NCBI RefSeq assembly: GCF_011927695.1
Contig: NZ_JAATJE010000002.1
Location: 792,001 to 856,000 of the forward strand
Reading direction: 5' to 3'
From: Sphingomonas jejuensis
Lineage (GTDB): Bacteria; Pseudomonadota; Alphaproteobacteria; Sphingomonadales; Sphingomonadaceae
DNA: 64,000 nucleotides
Positions 20,301 to 53,420 of the stretch are shown here, piece after piece. The translations under genes and the position numbers were made by a program. Below the pieces are notes generated by a model that ran no database searches, was not told the origin of the DNA, and was given only the letters and a program-made list of their open reading frames with translations. The stretch's first letter is position 1. Each line of letters begins with the position of its first letter.

Positions 20301-22592
20301 TCAGCGGCTGGCCGAGCGCCCGCGCGATGCCTCCGCCCGGGCCGCCACGCCGGCCGGCCAGGTCACCGGCTGCTGCGTCTGCGGGTTGAAGACGTTGCCG
20401 GGGTAGCGCGCAGCCGCCGCCGCCGCGAGCTCGGCCTCCGTCAGCCATTCGCTCGGCGTCAGCGCCAGCACGTCCAGCCCGCGGGTGATCTCCGTGCCGT
20501 AGATGTGCCCGTCATACCAGTAAGCGGACCAGAAGCCGCCCAGCACCAGCTGCTCGGCATCGATCGGCCCGCGATCGAAATAGGCGATCTCGCGGGGCGC
20601 GTTGCTGTCGGTGAAATCGATCACCGAGATGCCGCCCTGGTACCAGGCCTGGACGAAGATATCGCGCCCCGGCACCGGCACGATCGATCCGTTGTGCGCG
20701 ACGCAATTCTCCTTGTCGCCCTGCGGGGCAGGCAGCTTGAACGTGCCGCGCCGCACCAGCCGGTTCTCGACGATGTCGTAGATCGCGTCCGCGCCATAGT
20801 TGGCGGGGTCATAGGTCCGGCAGCGTGGCCGCGCGCCGCCGCCCCATTCGTCGGTGAAGATCACCTTGGTGCCGTCGTTGTTGAACGTCGCCGAATGCCA
20901 ATAGGCAAAACCCGGGTCGCTGACCGCGTCGATGCGCTTCGGCCGCAGCGGATCGGAGATGTCGAGCAGGATGCCGTTGCCCGAGCATGCCCCCGCCGCG
21001 ATGTTCCGCGACGGGAACACGGTGATGTCGTGGCACTGGTCGGTGCGGTTGGTGTTCTGCGTGCCCTCACCATGGTCGCCGCCGCGCCACAGGCCGGCGA
21101 TCTGCCCGGTGCCCTGGTCCGCGAAGACGCGCGGCCGGTCGACGATCCGCGCGGCGGCCGGGTTGGCGACCGGGATCTCGATCACGTCGATGGAGAACAG
21201 CGCGGTGCGGCTGTCGCCCGGCACGTCGCCGATGCAGCCGGCCAGCTCGGCCTCGTCGCGCACCTCCGCCGTGCCCGAATTGTAGACGACGATGCGACGC
21301 GCGTCCGACGATACGATCGAATGCGTGTGGCTGCCGCGGCAGGTCTGCACCTGCCCGACCTGGCGCGGTTCGGCCGGGTTGGAGATGTCGAAGATGCGCA
21401 GGCCGCGGAAACGATCGGCGCTGGCCTCGCCCTCGACGCCCTGCAGCCCGCAATCGACACGCCCGCGCGTCTGTTCGACCGACATGATGAGGATGTTGCC
21501 GGCGATGGAGATGTCGCCCTGGCCGCCCGGGCACACCACGGAGCTGATCAGCGCCGGCCGCCCCTCGGCGCCCAGCCGGTAGACGTTGAAGCCGTGGTAA
21601 TTGCCCGTGACCATCAGGTCGTTCGAAAAGGCGATGTCGGTGTTCCAGAAGCTCAGCAGCGACGATCGCTCGCCGAACTGGGTGCCCTGCTGCCCGTCGT
21701 TCTCGCCGCGCCGCGACGCGTCTTCGGTGGTTGGCTCCGCCGGGATCGGCGGGGCGAGCCCGCCCGGGTTCTCGGGGTCGAAGAAGCCCGCCGGCTTCGG
21801 CAGCGACGCGACCAGCCGCATGTTCTTCGCCGCCACGCCCGGGTTGGTGAGCCCGGCCGCCAGCTGCGCGCGCGGATCGGGCGACAGGCCGGCCAGGATG
21901 ACGTTCATCCGGTCGATCTCGGACTGCTGCTCGTTCTTCACGTCGCTCGTGAACTCGAACAGCGCGGGATCATAGGCCGATCCGGGCGATGCCAGCAGCT
22001 CGCGCACCATGGCGAGCGCGCCTTCGTGGTGCGCGATCATGCGCTGCAGGAACAGCCGGTCGAACTCGGTGCCGCGCGCGGCGGCAAGCGCGGCCATCTG
22101 CTCGGGCGTGGCCATGCCCTGCATGGTGGAATGATCCATGCCGGCCATGTCATGCCCCGCATGTGCGCCGTGACCGGCCTGCGCGCCGTGCCCGGCATGG
22201 CCAGCTGCCGCCGGCACGGTGCCGACCGCCGGCGCCATCTCGCCGCGCGCGCGCAGCCAGCTCTGCATGAACTGGATCTCGTCGCCCTGCGATGCGCGGA
22301 TGCGGTCGGCCATGGCGACGATGTCGGGCGTGTTGGTCCGCTCCGGCACCAGCACGACCATTTCCATCGCCTGCTGGTGGTGGTGGATCATGCCCTGCAT
22401 GAAGGCGACGTCGGCGGGTGAATGGCGGGTGCCCGCGATCCGGCTGGCCTCCGTCGCGCTCAGGCCGCGGCTGCTCTGCCCGGGTGCGCCCGGCTGGACG
22501 ATCGGCGGCTGCGCTGCCGCCGCCGTCGCCCCGCCGATCGCCACCGCACCCGCCAACAGCGCCGCCAGCTTCAGCCGCATGCGATGTGCCAT
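20301..22592 (-). CDS. Exported DUF305 + LVIVD-type beta-propeller fusion protein
   Basis: Secreted protein of 763 aa with a signal peptide (MRLKLAALLAGAVAIGGATAAAAQ). Residues ~50-230 are a DUF305-like helical region with paired His motifs (FMQGMIHHHQQAMEM and FLQRMIAHHEGALAMV) flanking a His/Met/Gly-rich linker (HAGHGAQAGHGAHAGHDMAGMDHSTM region, ~135-165) suited to binding Cu or a similar metal. Residues ~300-720 repeat blocks such as GLRIFDISNPAEPRQVGQV, ILLDISDPLRPKRIDAV and ISVIDFTDSNAPREIAYF, an LVIVD-type propeller. GGGAG precedes the ATG. The role is unknown, possibly metal-dependent surface or periplasmic binding. Confidence 0.8.
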   Translation of the reverse strand: MAHRMRLKLAALLAGAVAIGGATAAAAQPPIVQPGAPGQSSRGLSATEASRIAGTRHSPADVAFMQGMIHHHQQAMEMVVLVPERTNTPDIVAMADRIRASQGDEIQFMQSWLRARGEMAPAVGTVPAAAGHAGHGAQAGHGAHAGHDMAGMDHSTMQGMATPEQMAALAAARGTEFDRLFLQRMIAHHEGALAMVRELLASPGSAYDPALFEFTSDVKNEQQSEIDRMNVILAGLSPDPRAQLAAGLTNPGVAAKNMRLVASLPKPAGFFDPENPGGLAPPIPAEPTTEDASRRGENDGQQGTQFGERSSLLSFWNTDIAFSNDLMVTGNYHGFNVYRLGAEGRPALISSVVCPGGQGDISIAGNILIMSVEQTRGRVDCGLQGVEGEASADRFRGLRIFDISNPAEPRQVGQVQTCRGSHTHSIVSSDARRIVVYNSGTAEVRDEAELAGCIGDVPGDSRTALFSIDVIEIPVANPAAARIVDRPRVFADQGTGQIAGLWRGGDHGEGTQNTNRTDQCHDITVFPSRNIAAGACSGNGILLDISDPLRPKRIDAVSDPGFAYWHSATFNNDGTKVIFTDEWGGGARPRCRTYDPANYGADAIYDIVENRLVRRGTFKLPAPQGDKENCVAHNGSIVPVPGRDIFVQAWYQGGISVIDFTDSNAPREIAYFDRGPIDAEQLVLGGFWSAYWYDGHIYGTEITRGLDVLALTPSEWLTEAELAAAAAARYPGNVFNPQTQQPVTWPAGVAARAEASRGRSASR

Positions 22593-22673: not shown

Positions 22674-25190
22674 CTATTCGTAGCGGAGCGCGCCCACCGG
22701 GTTCGCCCGCGCCACCCGGATCGCGTGGGTGGCCACCGTCGCCACCGCGATCGCCGCGGCGCCCCCGCTGGCGAGCAGGAACGGCGTCGGCCCAAGCGCC
22801 ACGCGCGCGTCGAACCCGTTCAGCCAGTCGCGCATCGCCCACCACGCGATCGGCCAGGCGATCAGGTTGGCAAGCAGCACGGGGCGCGAGAACTGCCACA
22901 CCAGCAGCCGCACGATGTCGCGCGTGCGTGCGCCCAGCACCTTGCGGATGCCGATCTCCTTGGTGCGGCGCTCGGTGGTGAAGGCGGCCAGTCCGAACAG
23001 CCCCAGGCAGCCGACGATCACCGCCAGGATCGCAAAGCCGGCGAACATCTGCCCGACCGCCTCGTCGCGGGCGTAGAGCCCGGCCGCGCGCTCGTCGGCG
23101 AATTCGGCATCGAATGGCACGTCGGGGGCAAGCCGCTTCCACACGGCCTCCACCCGCTCGCGCACGGCGGCGGGATCGCCGTCGAAGCGCACCTCGAGAT
23201 AAGGCAGCCAGCCGCCGTTCCGGAACAGGATCATGTCCTCCACCTCGCGGTGTGCCGAGCGGAACCGCGTGTCACCCAGCACGCCGACGATGGTCGCGGG
23301 CACGCCATGTCCGTCGCGCGACAGCATGGACATGCTGATCTGCTTGCCGATGGCCTCGGCGGGCGACCGGAAGCCCATCTGCCGGGCACTGCTCTCGTTC
23401 ACCATCACGTTGATCCCGCGGCGCTGCAGCGCCTCCTCGGCGGCGCGCTGCTGCTCCGACGTGAAGTTGTCGGGCGGCAGGCCGAGCGAGGCATCGTCAA
23501 GCGCATGGTCGCGCGACAGCGTTCGCCCGGCCAGCAGCCGCATGCCCATCGTCTCGGCGAAACCATGATCCACGCTGTAGGCGCCCAGCACCAGTTCGCG
23601 CGCGTGGCCCGGCAAGGTCACGCCCAGGTTGCTGGTGTTGGAGGTGGAGATGCCGATGGATGTCAGCGCGCTCGATCGGACGCCGGGTACCCGCGCGATC
23701 TCCCGCTGCAGCGTTTCGGCCAGCGGCTTCACCTGGCCGCGCTCCAGATTGTCGATCTGCAGCACGCCTTCACGGTCAAAGCCGGGGTCCATCGTGCGGA
23801 CATGGGTCAGCTGCGCATAGACCACGACCGTGCAGATGATCAGACCGATTGAGATGGCGAACTGCACCACAACCAGCGTGTTGCGCAGCCGGCCGCTGCC
23901 GCCGGGCTCCGCCGAGGACTTGTTCGCCTTCAGCACCTCCGCCGGGCGGAAACGGGTCAGGTAAAAGGCGGGGTAGAGACCCGCCAGCACGCCGACCAGC
24001 AGTGTCAGTCCGACCGTCGGCAGCAGCAGGCCGTCCGTGCCCAGGTATCGAAAGGCGATGTCCGCCCCCAGCCATGACCGCAACCAGGGCAGCGACAACT
24101 CCACCACGGCAAGCGCCAGCATCGTCGCGATCGCCGTCACGATCAGCGACTCGGTCAGGAACTGGCCGATCAGCTGCGATCGATCGGCGCCCAGCACCTT
24201 CCTCAGCGACACCTCCCGCGCCCGGGCGGAGGCCCGCGCCGTCGCCAGGTTCGTGAAGTTCACGCAGGCCATGGCCAGGATCAGCACGGCCAGGCCGGCG
24301 AAGACCGCGATTGTGGTGGCGTTGCCGCGTCGCCCGGACGGCGATCCGTCAGCGCCCGACAGGTAGACGTCGGCGAGCGGAACCAGCTTGAAGGTCGATT
24401 GCGCCGCCTCGCTGACACTCTTGCCCGCCGCCTCGTAGCGGGGCGCGACCCGCTCTTTCCAGGCATCCAGCTGCGCGTTGATCGGATCGACCGATTGGCC
24501 GGGCTTCAGCTTCACATAGCTGGTGCCGCTGAACCAGCCCCAGGCGTTCACCTGGTCGGGATGAATGTCGGTTCCCTCCACAAGCCGCCGCACGATGCCG
24601 AACGCCTGGTGCGATGATCGCGGCAGATCGGCGTACACGGCGCTGACGCGATAATCGCTGGGCCCTTCGCTCGACAGCTGCGTGATCGTCCGGCCCACGG
24701 CAGCGTCCGTCCCGAACATCGCGCGCGCGGTGCTTTCGTCGATGGCGACGCTGTTCGGGTCCTTGAGCGCGGTGCGCGGATCGCCGTGGATGAACGGGAT
24801 CTTGAAGATCCAGAAGAACGCCGGCTCGACCTCCATGATGGTTTCCTGCACGGGCGCACCCGTCCGGTCGCGGATCACCGGCTGGTCGTTGTGCGTGTAG
24901 GCGAAACTCTCGATCGCATCGAAGTCCTTCGCCAGGGCATGCACCACCGCATAGGGCGTGTTCTGGATCGTCTCGGACGACCCCGTCTCCGTGTCCGTGT
25001 TGGTCGCCTGCAGCTGGAACACGCGCTCATGCTCACCCACGAACCGGTCGAAGCTCGTCTGGTCGCGGACGTAGAGCAGGATCAAGAGGCACGCGGCGAT
25101 GCCGATCGCCAGTCCCACGATGTTGATGACGGCATAGGTCCGGTTCTTGGCCAGCGACCGGAAAGCAACGGTTGCGTAGTTGCGCCACAT
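22674..25190 (-). CDS. FtsX/MacB-type ABC transporter permease 1
   Basis: Inner-membrane permease of 838 aa. An N-terminal helix (~20-42) is followed by a periplasmic MacB-PCD-like domain, then three helices (FtsX domain, ~300-440), a second extracytoplasmic domain and a final FtsX domain. The final domain carries the coupling-helix motif TTERRTKEIGIRKVLGA and ends VGALRYE. Such permeases use mechanotransmission to drive export or envelope extrusion. It is the last gene of the operon, nine bases after permease 2, its paralogue. Both FtsX domains are intact, so each may form homodimers or the two may pair. Confidence 0.92.
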   Translation of the reverse strand: MWRNYATVAFRSLAKNRTYAVINIVGLAIGIAACLLILLYVRDQTSFDRFVGEHERVFQLQATNTDTETGSSETIQNTPYAVVHALAKDFDAIESFAYTHNDQPVIRDRTGAPVQETIMEVEPAFFWIFKIPFIHGDPRTALKDPNSVAIDESTARAMFGTDAAVGRTITQLSSEGPSDYRVSAVYADLPRSSHQAFGIVRRLVEGTDIHPDQVNAWGWFSGTSYVKLKPGQSVDPINAQLDAWKERVAPRYEAAGKSVSEAAQSTFKLVPLADVYLSGADGSPSGRRGNATTIAVFAGLAVLILAMACVNFTNLATARASARAREVSLRKVLGADRSQLIGQFLTESLIVTAIATMLALAVVELSLPWLRSWLGADIAFRYLGTDGLLLPTVGLTLLVGVLAGLYPAFYLTRFRPAEVLKANKSSAEPGGSGRLRNTLVVVQFAISIGLIICTVVVYAQLTHVRTMDPGFDREGVLQIDNLERGQVKPLAETLQREIARVPGVRSSALTSIGISTSNTSNLGVTLPGHARELVLGAYSVDHGFAETMGMRLLAGRTLSRDHALDDASLGLPPDNFTSEQQRAAEEALQRRGINVMVNESSARQMGFRSPAEAIGKQISMSMLSRDGHGVPATIVGVLGDTRFRSAHREVEDMILFRNGGWLPYLEVRFDGDPAAVRERVEAVWKRLAPDVPFDAEFADERAAGLYARDEAVGQMFAGFAILAVIVGCLGLFGLAAFTTERRTKEIGIRKVLGARTRDIVRLLVWQFSRPVLLANLIAWPIAWWAMRDWLNGFDARVALGPTPFLLASGGAAAIAVATVATHAIRVARANPVGALRYE

Positions 25191-25199
25191 GGAACTGTC

Positions 25200-27677
25200 C
25201 TACTCGTAACGGAGGGCGTGGATGGGGTTTGCGCGGGCGACGCGCAGCGCATGGCCGGCGACCGTCGCCACCGCGATGGCGAGCGCGAGCAGCCCGGCCA
25301 CCGCGAACGGCGTGATCGTCAGCGGCACGCGGATGTCGAAGCCGTTCAGCCATTCGCGCATCGCCCACCATGTCGCCGGCCAGGCGACGAGGTTGGCGAG
25401 CACCACCGGCCGCGTGAACTGCCAGGCGAGCAGCCGGACGATGTCGGCGACGGTCGCGCCCAGCACCTTGCGGATGCCGATCTCCTTTGTGCGCCGCTCG
25501 GCCGCGAAGGCGGCAAGGCCGTAGAGCCCGAGGCAGGCGATCAGCACGGCGAGCGCGGAAAAGCCCGCGAACAGCACCGCGCGCGCCCGGTCGGCCGCCA
25601 GGAAGTCGGCCGCGATGTCGTCGGCAAAGCGCGCCTCGAACGGGATCTCCGGCTCCAAGCGGCGCCACACGCGCTCCAGTCCGGCCATCACTTCGGCGGG
25701 CCGTGCCCCGGCATAGCGGACCAGCACGGTCGATGTCTGCTGGGGCTCATAGGCGTAGACGAGCGGCTCCAGCGGCTCGCGCGCGGTGCGCAACCGCGTG
25801 TTCTCGACCACGCCGACGATCGTCGCCGGCACCATCTGCATGCCATCGCCGTCCCAGCCCGGAAAGGCGACGCGCACCACCTGGCCGAGCGCCGCGCCCG
25901 GCGACGCGAGGCCGAACATGCGCGCGCCGGCGCGGTTGATGACGACGTTGATGCCGCGTTCGCCAAGCGCGGCGGGCGACAGTCCGTCGAAGCGGTCGCC
26001 CTGCCGCGCCACATCGAAGCGCCTGCCGGCGAGCAGCGGCACGTCCATCGTCTGCAGAAAGGCATCGTCGACGCCGTAGAAGCCCATGGTGACATGGTCG
26101 GTCGCGCCGTCGCGCTGCATCAGCCGCATCGGCTGTTCGCCCGGATTGAGCGTCAGCGAGGTGCGCGCGACACCCGTGACGCCGGGGATCGCCTGCATCT
26201 GCGGCCGCGCGGCGTCATATTCGGAGCCCTGCGTGAAGCGCCAGGCATTGTCGATCTGGATGAGCCCGTCGCGGCGGTAGCCGGGATCGACGCGCGCGAT
26301 GAAGCGCGTCTGGCTGTAGATCACCGCGGTGGACGCGATCAGCCCGATCGCGATCGCGAACTGGACGACAACCAAGGCGGTTCGCGCCCGCGCGCTGCCC
26401 GGCGTCTCCGCCGATCCGCGGTTGGCGCCGAGGGCATGCGCCGGCCGCCCCTTTGCGGCGTAGAGCGCCGGAGCAAGCCCGCCGAGCAGGCCCACCGCGA
26501 CCAGCAGACCGGTCGCCGGCAAGAGCAAGCCGTTTTCGCCCAGGTAGCCGCGTGGCAGCCGCGTCTCGAGCAGCGCCTCGAGCCAGGGCGTCGCGATCTC
26601 GACCAGCGCGAGTGCGAGCAGCATCGCGATAGCCGCCGCGATCAGCGCCTCGACGGTGAACTGCGCCACGATCTGTCGCCGCGACGCGCCGAACAGCCGG
26701 CGGAGCGACACGTCGCGGGCCCGGGCGATCGCGCGCGCCGTGCCGTAGTTGAGGAAGTTGATGATCGCCATGGCGAGCGTCAGCAGCGCAACCACGGTCA
26801 GCGTCGTCAGCGCGCGCGCGTCGCCGCCCGGCACGATCGCGCCTTCCTGCGCTTGCCCCAGATGGATGGCGGTGATGGGGACGAGGTGAAAGTCGAACAC
26901 GCTGGCCATGCCCACCATCGCGCCGCCTTCCAGCCTGCTCGGCACCACGCGCCACTCCCATGCGGGAAGCGCCGCGTTGATCGTGGCGGGATCGGCGCCG
27001 GCCTTCAGCCGGACGAAGTGCTGCTGATCGAAATTGCCCCAGCCGCGCATCGGGGGCGGCACGCCGTTCGGGTCGCGGAGCGAGATGACGCCCAGCTTCA
27101 GGTTGGTGTTGGGCGGCAGATCCGCCAGCACGCCTGCGATGCGGCGGGGCACCTTGCCGTCGCCGGCACCGGTCGTCAGGCTGCGGCCAAGCACATCGGC
27201 CGTGCCGAACAGCTGCCGGGCAACACTTTCACCCAGCACGATCGCGGCAGGATCGGACAGCGCCGTTTCGGCCGAGCCGTGCAGGAAGGTGAGCGGAAAC
27301 ACCCGGAAGAAGCCGGGATCGACGCTGACCGCGTCCAGGAAGACCGGTGCCCCGTCATGCTCGGCGACGGTCTTTCCGACCTGGATCGACGTGATCGCTT
27401 CGACCTGCGGAAAGTCCGCGCCCATCCGTTCGAACACGGGAAAGGAGCTGCCCTGGTGATGGACGACATCGGTGCCGGGCGGGCGGATGACGGTCTGGAC
27501 CTGGAAGACCCGGTCATGCCCGGGCAGCCAGGCGTCGTAGCTGCGCTCCGCCCGGACATAGCCCAGGATCATCAGGCACCCCGCGAAGCCGAGCATCAGC
27601 CCGCCGATCGTCACCGCGGACGCACCCGGCTGGGCGATCAGGCGGCGCAGCGCGACGATCAGGTGGTTCTTCAGCAT
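25200..27677 (-). CDS. FtsX/MacB-type ABC transporter permease 2
   Basis: Inner-membrane permease of 825 aa starting MLKNHLIVALRRLIAQPG. The architecture matches its downstream paralogue: N-terminal helix, MacB-PCD-like periplasmic domain, FtsX domain, second periplasmic domain, and C-terminal FtsX with AAERRTKEIGIRKVLGATVAD. The end AIHALRYE-like tail parallels permease 1. It follows the ATPase gene by 17 bp with GGGGAGACGG just before the ATG. The open frame extends upstream into the ATPase gene, but the ATG at 27675-27677 gives the conserved N-terminus. Confidence 0.92.
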   Translation of the reverse strand: MLKNHLIVALRRLIAQPGASAVTIGGLMLGFAGCLMILGYVRAERSYDAWLPGHDRVFQVQTVIRPPGTDVVHHQGSSFPVFERMGADFPQVEAITSIQVGKTVAEHDGAPVFLDAVSVDPGFFRVFPLTFLHGSAETALSDPAAIVLGESVARQLFGTADVLGRSLTTGAGDGKVPRRIAGVLADLPPNTNLKLGVISLRDPNGVPPPMRGWGNFDQQHFVRLKAGADPATINAALPAWEWRVVPSRLEGGAMVGMASVFDFHLVPITAIHLGQAQEGAIVPGGDARALTTLTVVALLTLAMAIINFLNYGTARAIARARDVSLRRLFGASRRQIVAQFTVEALIAAAIAMLLALALVEIATPWLEALLETRLPRGYLGENGLLLPATGLLVAVGLLGGLAPALYAAKGRPAHALGANRGSAETPGSARARTALVVVQFAIAIGLIASTAVIYSQTRFIARVDPGYRRDGLIQIDNAWRFTQGSEYDAARPQMQAIPGVTGVARTSLTLNPGEQPMRLMQRDGATDHVTMGFYGVDDAFLQTMDVPLLAGRRFDVARQGDRFDGLSPAALGERGINVVINRAGARMFGLASPGAALGQVVRVAFPGWDGDGMQMVPATIVGVVENTRLRTAREPLEPLVYAYEPQQTSTVLVRYAGARPAEVMAGLERVWRRLEPEIPFEARFADDIAADFLAADRARAVLFAGFSALAVLIACLGLYGLAAFAAERRTKEIGIRKVLGATVADIVRLLAWQFTRPVVLANLVAWPATWWAMREWLNGFDIRVPLTITPFAVAGLLALAIAVATVAGHALRVARANPIHALRYE

Positions 27678-27694
27678 GGTTCCGTCTCCCCTGC

Positions 27695-28375
<681 letters not shown>

Positions 28376-28386
28376 CGTTGGTCCTT

Positions 28387-29682
28387 TCATCGACCGGTCA
28401 GGTCCAGCCGATCCTTGTCGGCGAACCCTGTGTAGGGGGAGGTCAGCACGCGCTCGCCGGGCTCCAGCCCGTCGAGCACCTCGATCGCATCCGTGTTGCG
28501 ACGGCCCAGCCGCACGGTGCGGCGCACCGCCTCCTCGCCGTCCGGCGACACCACGAACACCCAGGCGCCACCCGTTTCGTTGTAGAAGGCGCCGTTCGGG
28601 ATCAGGATGGCGGGCGCGGGATCGTCGAGGACGAGGCGCACCTGCAGCGTCTGCCCGCGCTGGATGCGCGGCGGCTCGTCGCCGGTGAACTGCAGGTCGA
28701 TCTCGAACTGTCCGTTCCTCACCTGCGGATAGATCTTGGTGACGCGGGCGCGGAACTGGCGCCCGTCGCTCTCGATCGATGCCTGCTGGCCCAGCTGCAC
28801 GCGACCGAGGTAGAATTCGTCGACGCCCGCGATCAGCTTGTTGCGGCCGGGGCTGTCGATCTGGCCGATGCGCTCGCCGCGCCCCATCGACTGGCCGACC
28901 TGGATCGAAAATCCGGACAGCTGGCCCGACACCGGCGCACGCAGGTTCAGCCCGTCCAGGTTGCGGCGCGCCAGCTCCAGCCCCGCGCCCATCGACTGCG
29001 ATGCGGCGCGCAGCTGCGCCAGCTGCCCGGTCTGCAGCCGCTCGTCCGTCGCCATTGTCCGGCGCATCACCTGCAGCCGCTCGCGCTGATAGGCGGCATC
29101 GTCTGCGGTGTCGCGAAAGGTGCGCTGCGCCACGAAGCCGCGCTCGGCCAGCGGCGCCTGCTGCTCGGCCAGCCGCATCGCCTTGCGGGCGGCAAGGTCC
29201 GCTTCCAGCAGGTTGCGCTCGTTGGCGAGGCGGTTCTGCGCCAGCGCCAGTTCCTGGCTGCGCATCGAATTGAGTTGCTGCGTCACTTCCGTCTGGCGCG
29301 CCAGCACCGACAGTTGCAGCTCGGCATTGGACAGCTCGGCCAGCAGCTGGCCCTTCTGGACGGTTGCGCCGTCCTCCACCAGCACGCGCTCCACCCGGCC
29401 GCCCTCGATCGAATCGAGGAACACGGTGACCAGCGGCGTGACGCGGGCGCGCAGCGGCAGGAAATCCTCGAACGTGCCGCGCTCAACGATGGAGATGGTT
29501 AGCCGCTCCGCCGCGATCGTCTGGCTGTTGGCACCCGGCGCGACGCTCCACAATCCGGCGGCGGCGATGGCGACCAGCGCGGCGGCGATGCCGGCCTTGG
29601 CGCGCGTCGACAGGCCGCGGGGCGCGACCACCCGGTCCATCGCGCCGCCATGCGCGGGCGTGGACACGGGCTCGGTCGGCAT
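28387..29682 (-). CDS. HlyD/MacA-type periplasmic adaptor of the ABC export system
   Basis: Membrane-fusion protein of 431 aa. A short cytoplasmic N-terminus and one transmembrane helix (~28-48) are followed by lipoyl halves (GGRVERVLVEDGATVQKGQ and NLRAPVSGQLSGFSIQVGQ) around a long coiled-coil hairpin (~120-235, Leu/Gln/Arg-rich). A beta-barrel and membrane-proximal domain end LEPGERVLTSPY. It would link the ABC permeases to an outer-membrane duct, but no TolC-type gene is in this operon. It starts 23 bp after the small secreted peptide gene with only a weak ribosome binding site, suggesting translational coupling. Confidence 0.92.
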   Translation of the reverse strand: MPTEPVSTPAHGGAMDRVVAPRGLSTRAKAGIAAALVAIAAAGLWSVAPGANSQTIAAERLTISIVERGTFEDFLPLRARVTPLVTVFLDSIEGGRVERVLVEDGATVQKGQLLAELSNAELQLSVLARQTEVTQQLNSMRSQELALAQNRLANERNLLEADLAARKAMRLAEQQAPLAERGFVAQRTFRDTADDAAYQRERLQVMRRTMATDERLQTGQLAQLRAASQSMGAGLELARRNLDGLNLRAPVSGQLSGFSIQVGQSMGRGERIGQIDSPGRNKLIAGVDEFYLGRVQLGQQASIESDGRQFRARVTKIYPQVRNGQFEIDLQFTGDEPPRIQRGQTLQVRLVLDDPAPAILIPNGAFYNETGGAWVFVVSPDGEEAVRRTVRLGRRNTDAIEVLDGLEPGERVLTSPYTGFADKDRLDLTGR

Positions 29683-29705
29683 GTGGATGACGCTCACCGA
29701 TGCGC

Positions 29706-29855
29706 TCAGGCGAGCGGGCAGCGGGCGGCCTGCGCCGTCGTGCGGGTGGAGGCGGCCGCGGCCGGCTCGGGCGCCAGGGTGATCGTCAGCAGCGTGGTCG
29801 CCATCATCAGGGCGGCGGACAGGCAGGCAAGGTTGCGGTTGGTCGCGCGGTACAT
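29706..29855 (-). CDS. 49-aa secreted peptide, first gene of the sigma-54 export operon
   Basis: Small protein MYRATNRNLACLSAALMM..., 49 aa. It has a signal-peptide-like N-terminus (basic start, hydrophobic core ALMMATTLLTITLA, then APEPAAAA), leaving a mature tail of about 14 residues that contains one Cys (STRTTAQAARCPLA). A strong GAAGGAG lies seven bases before the ATG. The gene starts about 40 nt downstream of the predicted sigma-54 start site and is followed by the HlyD gene 23 bp later. It could be an export substrate, a sensor-feedback peptide, or a leader. No family is recognised. Confidence 0.65.
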   Translation of the reverse strand: MYRATNRNLACLSAALMMATTLLTITLAPEPAAAASTRTTAQAARCPLA

Positions 29856-29905
29856 GGTGCTTCTCCTTCGGCAGCGGCCAGGATCGGCCGACACATGACA
29901 TCCTC

Positions 29906-29921
29906 AGCATGCGGCGTGCCA
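29906..29921 (-). promoter_or_regulatory. Sigma-54 (-24/-12) promoter of the export operon
   Basis: Minus strand reads TGGCACG-CCGC-ATGCT, matching the RpoN consensus TGGCACG-N4-TTGCW at every defined position but one, with the invariant GG and GC 12 bases apart. The predicted start of transcription is near 29895, about 40 nt before the 49-aa peptide ATG. An NtrC-family activator is encoded divergently next door. Confidence 0.8.
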
Positions 29922-29986
29922 AACCGCTAAATGTCTGAATTTGCTCGGTGGACGGCGGCGATCGCGCGTCGTTGGTCGAAACCCAC

Positions 29987-30002
29987 TGTCCGGATCCGGA
30001 CA
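29987..30002. promoter_or_regulatory. Enhancer site 1 (16-bp perfect palindrome)
   Basis: TGTCCGGATCCGGACA is a perfect 16-bp palindrome centred about 100 bp upstream of the predicted sigma-54 start site, the usual distance for an NtrC-type activator. It is the better of two related sites and probably binds the adjacent response regulator. Confidence 0.7.
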
Positions 30003-30007
30003 CAGGC

Positions 30008-30023
30008 TGTACGCTTCCGGACA
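30008..30023. promoter_or_regulatory. Enhancer site 2, overlapping the regulator's ribosome binding region
   Basis: TGTACGCTTCCGGACA matches site 1 at 13 of 16 positions and starts exactly 21 bp after it, two helical turns, so two dimers would bind on the same face. It ends one base before the regulator's ATG, which suggests the regulator also represses or tunes its own gene. Confidence 0.6.
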
Positions 30024-30024
30024 G

Positions 30025-31413
30025 ATGGATGCGGGGGCACGCTTCGATCTTTGCGTGATCATCGACGACGACGAGGACATCCTCTTCGCCGCCCGCCTGC
30101 TGCTGCGCGACCTGTTCGGCCGCGTCGTCACGGCCACCACCCCGGCCGACGCGTTCGCGCAGACCGCCGGCGCGGCACCCGACGTGATCCTGCTCGACGC
30201 CAATTTCGAACGGGGCGCCACCGACGCGGCAGAAGGCTTCGACTGGCTGGCGCGATTTCTCGCCCGCGATCCGGACGCCGCCATCGTCATGATCACCGCG
30301 CATGCCGGCATCGGCATCGCGGTCGAGGCGATGAAGCGCGGCGCCACCGATTTCGTGTCAAAGCCCTGGTCCAACGACCGGCTGCTCGCCACCGTGCGGA
30401 CGGCTGCGGCGCTGGGCCGCTCGCGCCGCGGCGCTGCGGCGGCGCCCGCTGCGGACGACGCGGCGTCCATCCCGGCCGGCGAAACCCCGATGATCGGCTC
30501 CGCGCCCGCGATGGCGCGGGTCGCCTCGCTGGTGGAGCGGGCCGGTCCTACCGATGCGAACGTCCTGGTGCTGGGCGAAAACGGCACGGGCAAGGAACTC
30601 GTCGCGCGCGCGCTCCATCACCGGTCGCGCCGGGCCGATCGTCCGCTCGTCACCGTGGATCTCGGCGCGGTCGCCGAAACGCTCTTCGACAGCGAGCTGT
30701 TCGGCCACGTGAAGGGCGCCTTCACCGATGCGCGCAGCGACCGGATCGGACGGCTGCAGGCGGCGGAGGGCGGCACGCTGTTCCTTGACGAGATCGGCAA
30801 CCTTCCGCTCCACCTCCAGCCAAAGCTGCTGACCGCGCTTGAACAGCGGCGGGTGACGCCCGTCGGCGCCAACAAGGCCGTGCCGATCGACGTCCGCGTG
30901 ATCGCCGCCACCAACCTGTCGCCCGCACAGCTGGCCGACGAATGCCGCTTCCGCCAGGACCTGCTGTTCCGCCTCAACACGGTGGAGATCGAGCTCCCGC
31001 CGCTCCGCGACCGGCGGGAGGACGTGCCCGCGCTGCTCACCCACTATCTCGGCTTCTACGCCCGCAAATATGGCGCCCGCCCCAAACCGGTCGCGCCCGA
31101 CCTGATGGCGATGCTTCAGCGCAACGACTGGCCGGGCAACGTCCGCGCGCTCCGCCACGCGGCCGAGCGGGCCGTGATCCTGTCCGGCACGGAGCCCTTC
31201 ACCATCGACGACTTTCCCGTCGGTCGGCTGGACGCGCCGCGCATCACGCTCGCCGCGCCGGCCGAGCCCGACGACATGAACCTCGAACGGGCCGAGCGCC
31301 GCATGATCGAAGGCGCGCTCAGGAAGCACGGCTACAACATCTCGCTCGCCGCGCAGGATCTGGGGCTCACCCGCGGGTCGCTCTACCGCCGGATGGAAAA
31401 GCATGGGCTCTAG
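30025..31413 (+). CDS. NtrC-family sigma-54-dependent response regulator (GAFTDA variant)
   Basis: Activator of 462 aa. The receiver domain (~1-125) has the phosphoacceptor Asp58 in VILLDANF and SKPW. The AAA+ domain (~150-390) has Walker A GENGTGKE (184-191), Walker B LFLDEIGNL (252-260), and GAFTDA at 231-236 where GAFTGA normally contacts sigma-54. The C-terminal Fis-type helix-turn-helix is in AAQDLGLTRGSLYRRMEKHGL. The ATG at 30025 is chosen because it starts the receiver fold. The histidine kinase gene overlaps its end by 11 bp. It is divergent from the export operon with its sigma-54 promoter and is the obvious activator. Confidence 0.95.
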   Translation: MDAGARFDLCVIIDDDEDILFAARLLLRDLFGRVVTATTPADAFAQTAGAAPDVILLDANFERGATDAAEGFDWLARFLARDPDAAIVMITAHAGIGIAVEAMKRGATDFVSKPWSNDRLLATVRTAAALGRSRRGAAAAPAADDAASIPAGETPMIGSAPAMARVASLVERAGPTDANVLVLGENGTGKELVARALHHRSRRADRPLVTVDLGAVAETLFDSELFGHVKGAFTDARSDRIGRLQAAEGGTLFLDEIGNLPLHLQPKLLTALEQRRVTPVGANKAVPIDVRVIAATNLSPAQLADECRFRQDLLFRLNTVEIELPPLRDRREDVPALLTHYLGFYARKYGARPKPVAPDLMAMLQRNDWPGNVRALRHAAERAVILSGTEPFTIDDFPVGRLDAPRITLAAPAEPDDMNLERAERRMIEGALRKHGYNISLAAQDLGLTRGSLYRRMEKHGL

Positions 31414-32731
31414 CGGGCGGCCGCCCGTCGGCCTTGCCGTGCGCACGGTGCTGCTGGGCGCCGCCATGCTGCTGGCGGTGGCCGCCACCCAGGCGGAGGG
31501 CCTGGTCGTCTCCCGGATCGTCGCATGGGGCCTCGTCGCCATCGCCGCCGGCGCCCTGTGGCACCATGTCACCCGCACCAACCGGGAGCTTGCCCGCTTC
31601 GTGGAGGCGGTGACGCACGGCGACCTGTCAGCCGGCTTCGGTGGAGAGGATCGCGGCGGCAGCATGGGGCGCCTCCGCCATGCGCTGGGCGGGGCGATGC
31701 GCCGCCTTCGCGAGGAGCGCGCGCAGTCGGAGGAAAGCAGCCGCTTCTACGCCGGGCTGGTGGAGGACGCGCCGACCGCGCTGCTGACGGTTGACCGCGA
31801 CGGGCGGGTGGAGACGGCCAACACCGCCGCCCGCCGCCTGTTCGCGCGGCACGACGGCGTGCGTGTCGACGATTTCGCCGTCTACGGCCCGTCGCTGGTC
31901 GCCGCGCTGAAGGAGGAGAACAGCAGCGGCCGGCTCGTCACGCTCGCCACCGACATCGGCCCGCAACAGGCGATGCTGCGCTCGGCCGCGATGAACCGGC
32001 TTGGCCGCTCTATGCGGGTGGTGGCGGTGCAGCCGATCCAGGCGGCGCTGAACGCGGTCGAGCTCGCCGCGCAGAGCGACCTCATCCGTGTCCTGACGCA
32101 CGAGATCATGAACTCCATGACGCCCGTGACGTCGCTTGCGCGCACCGCGGCCGGGCTGATCGCCACCGTGGACGATGGCCGCGACCCGGCGCTCAGCGAT
32201 GCGCGCATGGCGGTGGACACGCTGGCGCGCCGCGCCGACGGCGTGCTCCAGTTCGTCGGGACCTATCGTCAGATCAGCCGGCCCGTGCGGGTCGATCGAC
32301 GCCGCTTCGCCGCCGCGCCCTTCGCGCAGGAGCTGCGCCGCCTGTTCGAGGCCGACGGTGGCGGCACCGCCCGGCTCGACGTCAGCGTCACGCCCGCCGA
32401 TCTGGCGCTCGACGCCGATCCGGACCTGCTCGCCCAGGTGCTGATCAACCTGCTGCGGAACGCCGCGGAAGCCTGCCCGCGCGATGACGGCGTGATCGGG
32501 CTGGAGCTTGCCGCCGGTCCCGCCGGCTCCGGGCGCGTAATCGTCACCGACAACGGGCCCGGCGTGCCAGAGGCGAAGCGGCCGGACGTGTTCCTGCCCT
32601 TCTACACCACCAAGCCGAGCGGCACGGGCGTCGGCCTCAGCTTCGCGCGCCAGGTGATGCTGGCGCACGATGGAACCATCGCGCTCGACGATGCGCCCGG
32701 CGGCGGCGCGCGATTCACCTTGCTGCTGTAG
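31403..32731 (+). CDS. PAS-containing sensor histidine kinase
   Basis: Membrane sensor kinase of 442 aa, partner of the preceding NtrC-type regulator (11-bp overlap). Two N-terminal helices (~13-31 and ~36-54) have almost no periplasmic loop, so the signal is likely membrane-borne or cytoplasmic. A PAS-like region (~113-205) precedes the H-box LTHEIMNSMTPV with phospho-His233. The ATPase domain has an N-box (INLLRNAAEA), G1 (DNGPGVPEAKR) and G2 (GTGVGLSFARQ). The H-box is of the NtrY-like type. The ligand is unknown. Confidence 0.93.
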   Translation: MGSSGRPPVGLAVRTVLLGAAMLLAVAATQAEGLVVSRIVAWGLVAIAAGALWHHVTRTNRELARFVEAVTHGDLSAGFGGEDRGGSMGRLRHALGGAMRRLREERAQSEESSRFYAGLVEDAPTALLTVDRDGRVETANTAARRLFARHDGVRVDDFAVYGPSLVAALKEENSSGRLVTLATDIGPQQAMLRSAAMNRLGRSMRVVAVQPIQAALNAVELAAQSDLIRVLTHEIMNSMTPVTSLARTAAGLIATVDDGRDPALSDARMAVDTLARRADGVLQFVGTYRQISRPVRVDRRRFAAAPFAQELRRLFEADGGGTARLDVSVTPADLALDADPDLLAQVLINLLRNAAEACPRDDGVIGLELAAGPAGSGRVIVTDNGPGVPEAKRPDVFLPFYTTKPSGTGVGLSFARQVMLAHDGTIALDDAPGGGARFTLLL

Positions 32732-51831: not shown

Positions 51832-53420
51832 TCAGCGCGCCGGGCTGTCCGCCCCGTCGGCTGGGCCGTTTGTCCCCGGCGTGGGCGCCGCCGTCGATGC
51901 TCCGTCCGCCGCCACCAGCGGATCGCCGCCCAGCGTGCGGTACAGCGTCACCAGGTTGCTGCCGGCGGTCAGCCGGGTCAGCACCAGGTTGCGCTGCGCG
52001 GCATAGAGCGATCGCTGCGCATCCAGGTTCGACAGGAAGGTGTCGACGCCGCCGCGATAGCGCGCGTTCGCCAGCTCGAACGTGTCGGCCGCCGCTGCCT
52101 CGAAATTCCGGTCGGCGCGCAGCTGGTCGGCAATGGTGCCGCGCCGCGCGAGCGCGTCCGCAACCTCGCGGAACGCCACCTGGATCGACCGTTCGTAGCT
52201 GGACAGCGCCGCATCGCGCTGCGCCTGGGTGAGCGCGACGCCCGCCCGCCCGGCACCCGCGCGGAAGATCGAGTAGCTGACGTTGGGCGCCACCGAGTAG
52301 TTGAAGGCATCGCCGGTAAACAGCGTGCGGAGCGCGTCGCTGGCAAAGCCGACGATGCCCGTCAGCGAGATGCGGGGGAACAGCTCGGCCCGTGCCGCGC
52401 CGATCTCCGCATTGGCCGCCCGCAGCTCATACTCCGCCTGCACCACGTCCGGCCGGCGCAGCAGGATCGACGAATCGAGCCCGGCGGGCAGCGCTGCGAT
52501 GCTTGCCTCGACCTGCTCGATCGACTGGGGCAGCAGCGCCGGGTCGATCTCCGCGCCGACCAGCAGCCGCAGCGCGTTGACGTCCTGCGCCAGCGCGGTG
52601 CGCTGTTCGGCCAGGTCGGACTGCGCCGTGAACAGCACCTGTTCCGCCTGCCGGAGGTCGCTGCGCGGTGCGACGCCGCCACGCAGCCGCGCGCGGGTAA
52701 GGGACACGCTCCGCTCCGCGCTCGCCGCCGTCTGTTCGGCGATCCGGAGGAGGCTGCGATCCGCCGCGTAGATCAGCCAGGCATCGGCGATGTCGCCGAC
52801 CAGGGTCAGCCGCACGCTGCGCGCCGCCGCCTCCGTCGCGAAGAAGCGGTCCAGCGCGGCCTCGGTCTGCGACCGGATGCGCCCGAACAGGTCCAGCTCA
52901 AAGGCGGTGATGCCCAGATCAATCGAATAGCTGCTGGCCGACCGCGACAGCGTGGTGACGGTGCTCGTCCCGCCCGTGCCCGGCACCGGGGTCCCCGGCG
53001 TCGGGGTCGGCGTGCCCGTACCGGGCGTGGGGGTCGGCGACGGGGTGCCGCCCGCACCCGTGCCGGCGACCGCGGTGGCGCCGTTGCCGCCGCCCGAATA
53101 GCTATACCGGCCGCTCACATCGACCTGCGGGAACAGGTCGGCGCGCTGGATGCGGTACTGCGCGCGCGTCGCCGCGATGTTGGCGGCGGCGACCCTCAGG
53201 TCGCGGTTGTTGGCGAAGGCCTGCTCGATCAGCGCCACCAGCCGCGGGTCGCGGAACAGATCGCGATAGCTCAGCGCAGGCAGCGTGGCCTCCGTCTGGC
53301 GCAGGTAGGCATCGCCGGCCGGCCACGACGCCGGCACCGGCAGCGCCGGCTGGCGATAGGCCGGCGCCAGCGAACAGCCGCCGATCAGCGCCGCCAGCGG
53401 CAGCGAGAAGGCCGCGCGCC

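Follow-up and report, generated by a model that had tools for sequence, protein, structure and literature searches.

Several described systems come close to parts of the locus analysed here. AcrZ of Escherichia coli is about 49 aa long. According to PMC7267776, it interacts with an efflux pump in the pump's transmembrane part. MgrB of E. coli has 47 aa, with an N-in helix that can also be read as a signal sequence and a periplasmic tail with two Cys, and is made under the regulator of PhoQ, the kinase that it inhibits (PMC2789325 and PMC10576120). Among exporters, MacAB-TolC exports the enterotoxin STII and the Aat system exports CexE, according to PMC5985334 and PMC7943197. UrcA has been described as a periplasmic protein of unknown function, with the Caulobacter gene under UzcRS (PMC8963506), and one UrcA is listed among the proteins released from Asaia (PMC12502724). 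Our literature search, which was not exhaustive, found no description of a combination of sigma-54, FtsX-like permease, HlyD, small peptide and histidine kinase.

In this study, we analysed a window of 64,000 nucleotides (the whole stretch of Sphingomonas jejuensis DNA under consideration), in which a 49-aa frame heads an exporter operon with a divergent regulator gene on its other side. The features of the locus are:

22674..25190, minus strand: FtsX/MacB-type permease 2 (TIGR03434 ADOP, 339 bits, under the cut-off of 622; PF12704, PF02687)
25200..27698, minus strand: FtsX/MacB-type permease 1, start approximate (TIGR03434 ADOP, 281 bits, under the cut-off of 622; PF12704, PF02687)
27695..28375, minus strand: ABC ATPase of DarD/MacB type (NF038007, 274.5 bits, under the cut-off of 375; PF00005)
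28387..29697, minus strand: HlyD/DarC-type periplasmic adaptor, probable GTG start (NF038010 DarC, 166.5 bits, under the cut-off of 450; TIGR01730 RND_mfp, 142 bits, over the cut-off of 95)
29706..29855, minus strand: 49-aa micropeptide gene, product MYRATNRNLACLSAALMMATTLLTITLAPEPAAAASTRTTAQAARCPLA
29863..29868, minus strand: ribosome binding site AAGGAG, 7 nt 5' of the micropeptide ATG
29906..29922, minus strand: sigma-54 -24/-12 promoter-like site TTGGCACGCCGCATGCT, zero mismatches, 65 nt before the micropeptide start codon
29987..30002, no strand: perfect palindrome TGTCCGGATCCGGACA of pattern TGTCCGNNNNCGGACA, a likely operator for the response regulator
30008..30023, no strand: second operator copy with one mismatch, 21 nt beyond the first
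29941..31413, plus strand: divergent sigma-54 response regulator (PF00072, PF00158, PF02954), real start probably ATG 30025
31403..32731, plus strand: histidine kinase with an N-terminal two-helix hairpin, no periplasmic domain evident in a hydropathy scan read by eye

The adaptor searches used ATG 29682 as the start. Judged by eye, with relatives' adaptors beginning M/V-S-V, the likely hlyD start is GTG 29697, which lies 8 nt past the micropeptide stop and has no clear SD. The exporter scored below the darobactin thresholds (DarD 274.5 of 375 bits, DarC 166.5 of 450, DarB 69.6 and 53.4 of 700), and a darobactin-type precursor was unsupported beyond this exporter similarity. No TolC, maturation or radical-SAM gene was found among the eight window proteins scanned. 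A partial TolC-family match (102 bits, under cut-off) lies at about 51961-52944 of the window on the minus strand, and two TolC-family genes over the cut-off lie elsewhere in the same genome. Directly after the exporter permeases, a 763-aa protein (20301-22592, minus strand) carries a DUF305 domain, which is CopM-like but scored under the cut-off, together with a stretch resembling choice-of-anchor B.

The first-pass annotation had placed a tiny gene with a good ribosome binding site between a sigma-54 start and the HlyD gene, and the analysis confirmed this gene (49 aa, AAGGAG, 29855..29706 on the minus strand). Its product has a short N-terminus, a hydrophobic segment at about residues 11-28, an A-x-A-like site and a tail ending RCPLA; about 14 residues (14-15) follow the site, with one tail Cys, at position -4 from the end. 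The tail length and the single tail Cys agree with the signal-peptide-like start and roughly 14 mature residues with one Cys that had been proposed, but a second Cys is residue 11, where the hydrophobic core begins, and the product may be a membrane peptide rather than a secreted one. The gene had also been placed next to a membrane sensor kinase; its divergent neighbour is instead the sigma-54 response regulator, and the kinase is the gene after that. The statement that no described family was recognised holds for the window frame, which gave no Pfam or NCBIfam match at E 0.001 and is not UrcA by the TIGR04433 test (cut-off 25 bits), but not for the slot as a whole, since UrcA-family proteins (TIGR04433) fill it in some relatives. 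When a profile of seven relatives from clades B and AC, built without the window, was run against the 1141 ORFs of the window, this frame ranked first (E 0.0015; 0.0052 and 0.016 with wider profile sets). It shares with the slot frames of relatives a hydrophobic start, a place between the sigma-54 site and hlyD, and detectable kinship to its nearest neighbours.

We searched 298 genomes of the family with the adaptor, and 56 matched at E 1e-40, in 58 places; a second genome-contig collection contributed 45 loci. All 58 places were fetched (30 first, 28 later), and eight of the 28, with 51-61% adaptor identity, joined the main set. This set has 82 rows, which are related to one another and include the window and several same-species duplicates from both collections. 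Of 75 loci examined, counting the window, 74 have a regulator homologue; the one without it (L072), whose fragment begins within the adaptor gene, was dropped. The results showed that the slot was filled in 71 of the 82 loci, window included, by a short hydrophobic-start frame or a UrcA gene, so that the search for a short frame in orthologous operons, which had been suggested as a check, was positive. The 71 comprise 62 curated short frames, four UrcA genes (L011, L034, L099, L100) and five duplicate rows (L036, L043, L050, L054, L074) that were first scored as having no ORF but show the frame. The exporter was kept without a frame in the other 11 (L015, L042, L020, L028, L030, L032, L047, L101, L102, L103, L105); the gaps of L028, L032 and L047 contain, by eye, differing inverted-repeat stretches, perhaps the frame's replacement. 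The remaining 20 fetched loci (L082-L097, L106-L109), with 36-39% adaptor identity, held seven UrcA genes, one short frame (L088) and neither in 12; a sigma-54-like site lay in the gap of all eight occupied loci and in none of the 12 empty ones. Of seven loci from other alphaproteobacterial families, five (L112-L116) had no convincing frame in the slot, and a Pfam scan of seven slot products returned nothing under E 0.09. One locus (L075) carries three tandem short hydrophobic-start frames (about 44, 43 and 42 aa) within about 580 bases before hlyD; the first and second are near-copies of each other and look like a duplication of the peptide gene.

A strict scan, which required an SD, 24-130 aa and a hydrophobic start, found frames in 62 of the 82 orthologous gaps (rows related, some of them duplicates). 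Fifty dinucleotide shuffles gave 1.5 on average and never more than 5, and the opposite strand gave 6 of 82. This 62 is not the curated 62: it counts UrcA genes and duplicates and omits some loci with a weaker SD. Purifying selection had been named as a further check, and here too the outcome was positive: over codons 2-30, the in-frame dN/dS was below both shifted frames in nine of ten clades, the comparison being limited to shifted frames that gave a value. The in-frame values, which are rough because many pairs differ at about half of their synonymous sites, were 0.26 in B, 0.61 in AC, 0.46 in D, 0.54 in E, 0.36 in F, 0.68 in G, 0.78 in G2, 0.56 in H and 0.20 in T. The contrast was modest in the window's own clade, AC (0.80 and 1.54 shifted), and weak in G2 (0.86 and 1.03 shifted), and the exception was the nearly invariant clade J (1.01 in frame, 0.18 and 1.22 shifted). 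HlyD gave 0.10-0.33 in the six clades compared, and selection on the micropeptide is weaker than on HlyD. The shuffle scan and the in-frame dN/dS reject a chance frame; the slot frame looks like a real gene under protein-level selection, fast-changing in sequence. A single family uniting all clades was mostly unsupported by profile comparison (2.4% for E with F, 1.5% for E with B/AC, 23% for B/AC with D); only G with G2 scored high (98.3%). The link between clades is the slot and the architecture, not profile similarity.

We then split the products at residue 30, with operator-like bases masked, and compared dN/dS in the two parts. The N-terminal part was tighter than the tail in B (0.26 vs 0.60), AC (0.52 vs 1.55), E (0.54 vs 1.30) and H (0.56 vs 0.78), whereas the tail was tighter than the first 30 residues in D (0.27 vs 0.46), G (0.56 vs 0.68), G2 (0.57 vs 0.76) and J (0.06 vs 1.01); clade F has no tail and clade T gave no tail value. 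Constraint in the helix and not the tail was therefore rejected as a general rule, with four clades each way, and the window's own clade behaves like a helix with a free tail, differing from others. The products of clade F have 27-28 aa, end right after the helix and gave a dN/dS of 0.36; two further loci are also helix-only (L031, 30 aa; L045, 31 aa). In a tree of 75 regulators made by a quick method, which omits the short-fragment rows (L034, L044, L058, L061, L067, L086, L102, L103), L083, duplicates and 12 empty low-identity loci, clade F and the longer-tailed clade E form one group of 13 rows (SH-aLRT 99). Since the helix-only L066 branches first in this group, gain of the tail is as possible as its loss.

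Of 61 distinct frames, 21 have a Cys at precisely the sixth residue from the C-terminal end (shuffle mean 1.8; none of 5000 tail shuffles reached 21), namely 3/3 in D, 5/8 in E, 11/13 in G, 1/4 in G2 and L010, in counts that ignore kinship. In clade G the first Cys sits, by eye, in operator-like DNA, and only the second, at -6, was used. Altogether 47 of the 61 distinct frames end in A or L, against a tail frequency of 0.24 for A and L together. The window frame also ends in A, with its tail Cys at -4 and not at -6. A-x-A-like signal-peptidase sites were seen by eye in many clades, the window's included, and given these the product may be cleaved. The results bear unevenly on the earlier emphasis on a secreted 14-residue peptide. 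A tail Cys is present in all 11 sequences of AC, B and D, as a conserved Cys would have it, and absent from F, H, J and T; the tail is near-neutral in AC and E but constrained in D, G and G2; and the emphasis does not suit clade F, L031 and L045, which have almost no tail, or the second family described below (f51), in which the product has a C-terminal membrane helix instead.

Upstream of the frame, TTGGCACGCCGCATGCT was the sole match with at most one mismatch in the 64-kb window; with a shuffle mean of 0.71, it is not significant by itself. Across the curated slot frames, the looser pattern TGGCA[CT]N5NTGC was found 26-85 nt (mostly 50-67) before the start codon in 55 of 62, the seven without it being all four of clade B together with L022, L029 and L075. 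A sigma-54-like site also lay immediately 5' of hlyD in 32 of the 62 loci, and in many relatives the frame stops 50-220 nt ahead of the first matched hlyD codon. By eye, sites resembling TGGCACG...TTGATTGTCCG lie on the reverse strand ahead of the regulator gene in the gaps of L020, L025, L032 and L047, where they may form a sigma-54 promoter for autoregulation. The exact operator pattern TGTCCGNNNNCGGACA occurs at one place in its own genome, the TGTCCGGATCCGGACA palindrome; a backward control pattern also matches once, and uniqueness was rejected as evidence by itself. In orthologous gaps (gap plus 120 nt of the regulator side), the exact pattern was present in 41 of 82, at 62 sites, compared with a shuffle mean of 0.03 (maximum 1 of 82) and 0 for the backward pattern. 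It is this recurrence in relatives' gaps that serves as evidence for the operator, and the response regulator therefore probably acts mainly on its own locus.

The kinase appears to have no periplasmic domain. Hydropathy scans read by eye, in which the helices often merge, showed a two-helix N-terminal hairpin with a short loop in 42 of 44 loci (L035-L079 without L072; the kinase gene is present in 43, not in L044, and in L068 the chosen start cut off the first helix). The window kinase also gave a weak PAS match. With no periplasmic domain evident, its input must come through the membrane, from partners or from the cytoplasm; 'intramembrane-sensing kinase' is a term in use for such proteins.

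UrcA occupied the slot in 11 fetched loci, ten identified by the TIGR04433 profile (48.5 bits in L011, 52 bits in L034 and 37-73 bits in L082, L083, L086, L089, L092, L094, L099 and L100) and L084 by inspection. Although as many as 250 of 298 genomes of the family have UrcA, chance would not be expected to place it, in several lineages, within the few hundred bases that precede this one adaptor. Homology of the short frames to UrcA was not supported, as hhalign against the 11 slot UrcA sequences was insignificant (at most 2.1% for seven groupings including the window's, which gave 1.4%; 26-27% for H and T). Away from this locus, a single UrcA gene is present in the genome that the window comes from (G000:C2:249323-249583, 64.8 bits).

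A class-wide search matched 8 of 385 genomes, the window's own included, and two of the matches (L110, L111) belong to a second alphaproteobacterial family, f51. Within f51, the adaptor matched at E 1e-60 in 17 of 79 genomes, at 18 places. A micropeptide with a C-terminal hydrophobic helix stood behind a sigma-54-like site in 17 of these 18 loci (starts not fixed); the exception, L135, is a 34% paralogue with no micropeptide frame. The products have the core (D/E)R(V/I)EDA..NPDLWL....WL or variants of it (14 distinct cores), also given as ..RVEDALLSVNPDLWL..WLGRL, and since the hydrophobic stretch is C-terminal, nothing secretable follows it. In-frame dN/dS was 0.54, compared with 0.87 and 1.72 in the shifted frames. 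The best regulator homologue (55-58%), probably the operon's own regulator, lay apart from the exporter in five of six f51 genomes tested (about 5 kb in G697, 31 kb in G565, 0.3 Mb in G470, 1.7 Mb in G694, another contig in G707) and adjacent in G702; the micropeptide thus keeps company with the exporter. Profile comparison of f51 with the sphingomonad clades gave no match (at most 3.9%), and the two sets may be unrelated proteins in one slot. No UrcA was seen among the candidate slot frames of these 18 loci.

The reading that we place first, though tentatively and at less than an even chance, is that the micropeptide works with the exporter as its partner in the inner membrane and perhaps reports to the kinase. 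Activity of the local sigma-54 regulator would lead to its production together with the Dar/MacB-type exporter, and it would sit in the inner membrane with its N-terminus in and its short tail outside. Its hydrophobic helix would be the working part, lying beside the exporter permeases and tuning or marking the pump, a role like that of AcrZ towards AcrB. In an MgrB-like manner it may further signal the load on the pump to the kinase, in which the membrane hairpin is the one sensing part evident. That the peptide is translated, remains in the membrane in this orientation and touches pump or kinase is inferred here from sequence, as is the way in which any feedback would run. We favour this membrane partner because of the helix-only forms, the hairpin kinase and the linkage to the exporter, and because in the E/F group the tail comes or goes while the helix stays; the tighter N-terminal part in AC, B, E and H and the f51 micropeptides also speak for it. 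The Cys at -6 in 21 of 61 frames counts against it, as the outside end then matters too, and so do the tighter tails of D, G, G2 and J, the A-x-A-like sites, the UrcA proteins in the slot, the 11 of 82 loci whose exporter has no frame, the lack of a profile match between f51 and the sphingomonad clades, and the first-branching L066. In a rival reading the peptide is an exported client. Such a client would be Sec-secreted, cleaved, closed by a disulfide where two Cys are present, and then pushed out by the MacB-type exporter. We regard this as less than an even chance, but only slightly less probable than the membrane partner. MacB-type pumps draw clients from the periplasm (PMC5985334 and PMC7943197), and UrcA, called periplasmic in PMC8963506, occupies the same slot; the A-x-A-like sites seen by eye, the near-end Cys, the tails of D, G, G2 and J, tighter than their starts, and the fast-changing middle of the product all favour it. 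It accounts poorly for clade F, L031, L045 and the 17 f51 products, which have little or nothing to export, for the 11 of 82 loci with an exporter and no frame, and for the absence of both TolC and maturation genes from the eight window proteins scanned (TolC-family genes lie elsewhere in the genome). The membrane-partner and client readings may both hold, in different clades. A further reading is a pump-coupled loop, in which the operon would produce its own membrane-inserted client, the exporter would pull this out of the membrane, the sensor-domain-less kinase would read the unexported peptide and reset the operon, and micropeptides, disulfide-loop peptides and whole UrcA would be exchangeable messengers; we think this rather unlikely, but if true, the UrcA family would gain a consistent genetic partner.

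Feedback on the kinase alone, in which the peptide would bind the membrane hairpin and lower or raise its activity while the exporter is merely co-regulated, seems unlikely to us. The peptide is apparently made under the regulator that belongs to this kinase, and the kinase itself seems to lack any sensor domain beyond the membrane. MgrB offers a precedent with 47 aa, one helix and two periplasmic Cys (PMC2789325 and PMC10576120), and the sigma-54-like site before hlyD in 32 of 62 loci would allow peptide and pump to be made separately; yet five of the six f51 genomes tested have the peptide beside the exporter and their best regulator homologue elsewhere, and UrcA in the slot does not fit. 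The occurrence of UrcA in 11 fetched loci, and the signal region of L098 and L104 (43 aa), which by eye resembles that of the UrcA in L099, would suit a remnant of a full-length UrcA gene that kept the signal peptide and lost the mature domain. We consider such a remnant improbable: the profile comparison with the 11 slot UrcA sequences was insignificant, the regulator tree cannot separate gain from loss, and no UrcA was seen in the slot of the 18 f51 loci. The least probable reading, which we hold to be very remote, is a leader frame whose main task would be translational coupling to the adaptor and whose sequence would matter little. The 8-nt gap to the likely hlyD GTG, which by eye lacks a clear SD, would suit it, but it is at odds with protein-level selection on the frame, with the 50-220 nt between frame and first matched hlyD codon in many relatives and with the sigma-54-like site before hlyD in 32 of 62 loci.

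These findings point to a recurring slot at the head of a sigma-54-driven exporter operon that holds small, fast-changing hydrophobic products, and frames this short easily escape annotation. The slot gives UrcA proteins a consistent genetic neighbour in some sphingomonads, and the locus is a simple system for asking how a pump and a sensor-domain-less kinase could communicate through the membrane. Compared with the UrcA family (TIGR04433), which shares the slot in 11 fetched relatives and has a signal region and, in most of those, a Cys pair, the short frames differ in that UrcA proteins have about 75-120 aa with a mature domain and give no significant profile match to them. DarBCD, the darobactin exporter, is among the nearest NCBIfam models for the window ATPase and adaptor, although all scores were under the curated cut-offs and the eight window proteins scanned include no radical-SAM gene. 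The Aat/CexE and MacAB/STII systems likewise pair a MacB-related exporter with a small Sec-routed protein (PMC5985334 and PMC7943197); client export was shown there, whereas here some products have no mature part, and the operon genes scanned include no outer-membrane partner. The likenesses to MgrB and AcrZ were drawn without sequence comparison. MgrB resembles the window product as a short single-helix product apparently made under the regulator of an adjoining kinase, but PhoQ has a periplasmic domain, which the window kinase seems to lack, and MgrB has two periplasmic Cys where the window product has one tail Cys. AcrZ, which acts on AcrB, has one helix and a similar length and is a partner of a pump's membrane part; AcrB is an RND pump, whereas the pump here is a MacB/Dar-type ABC exporter.
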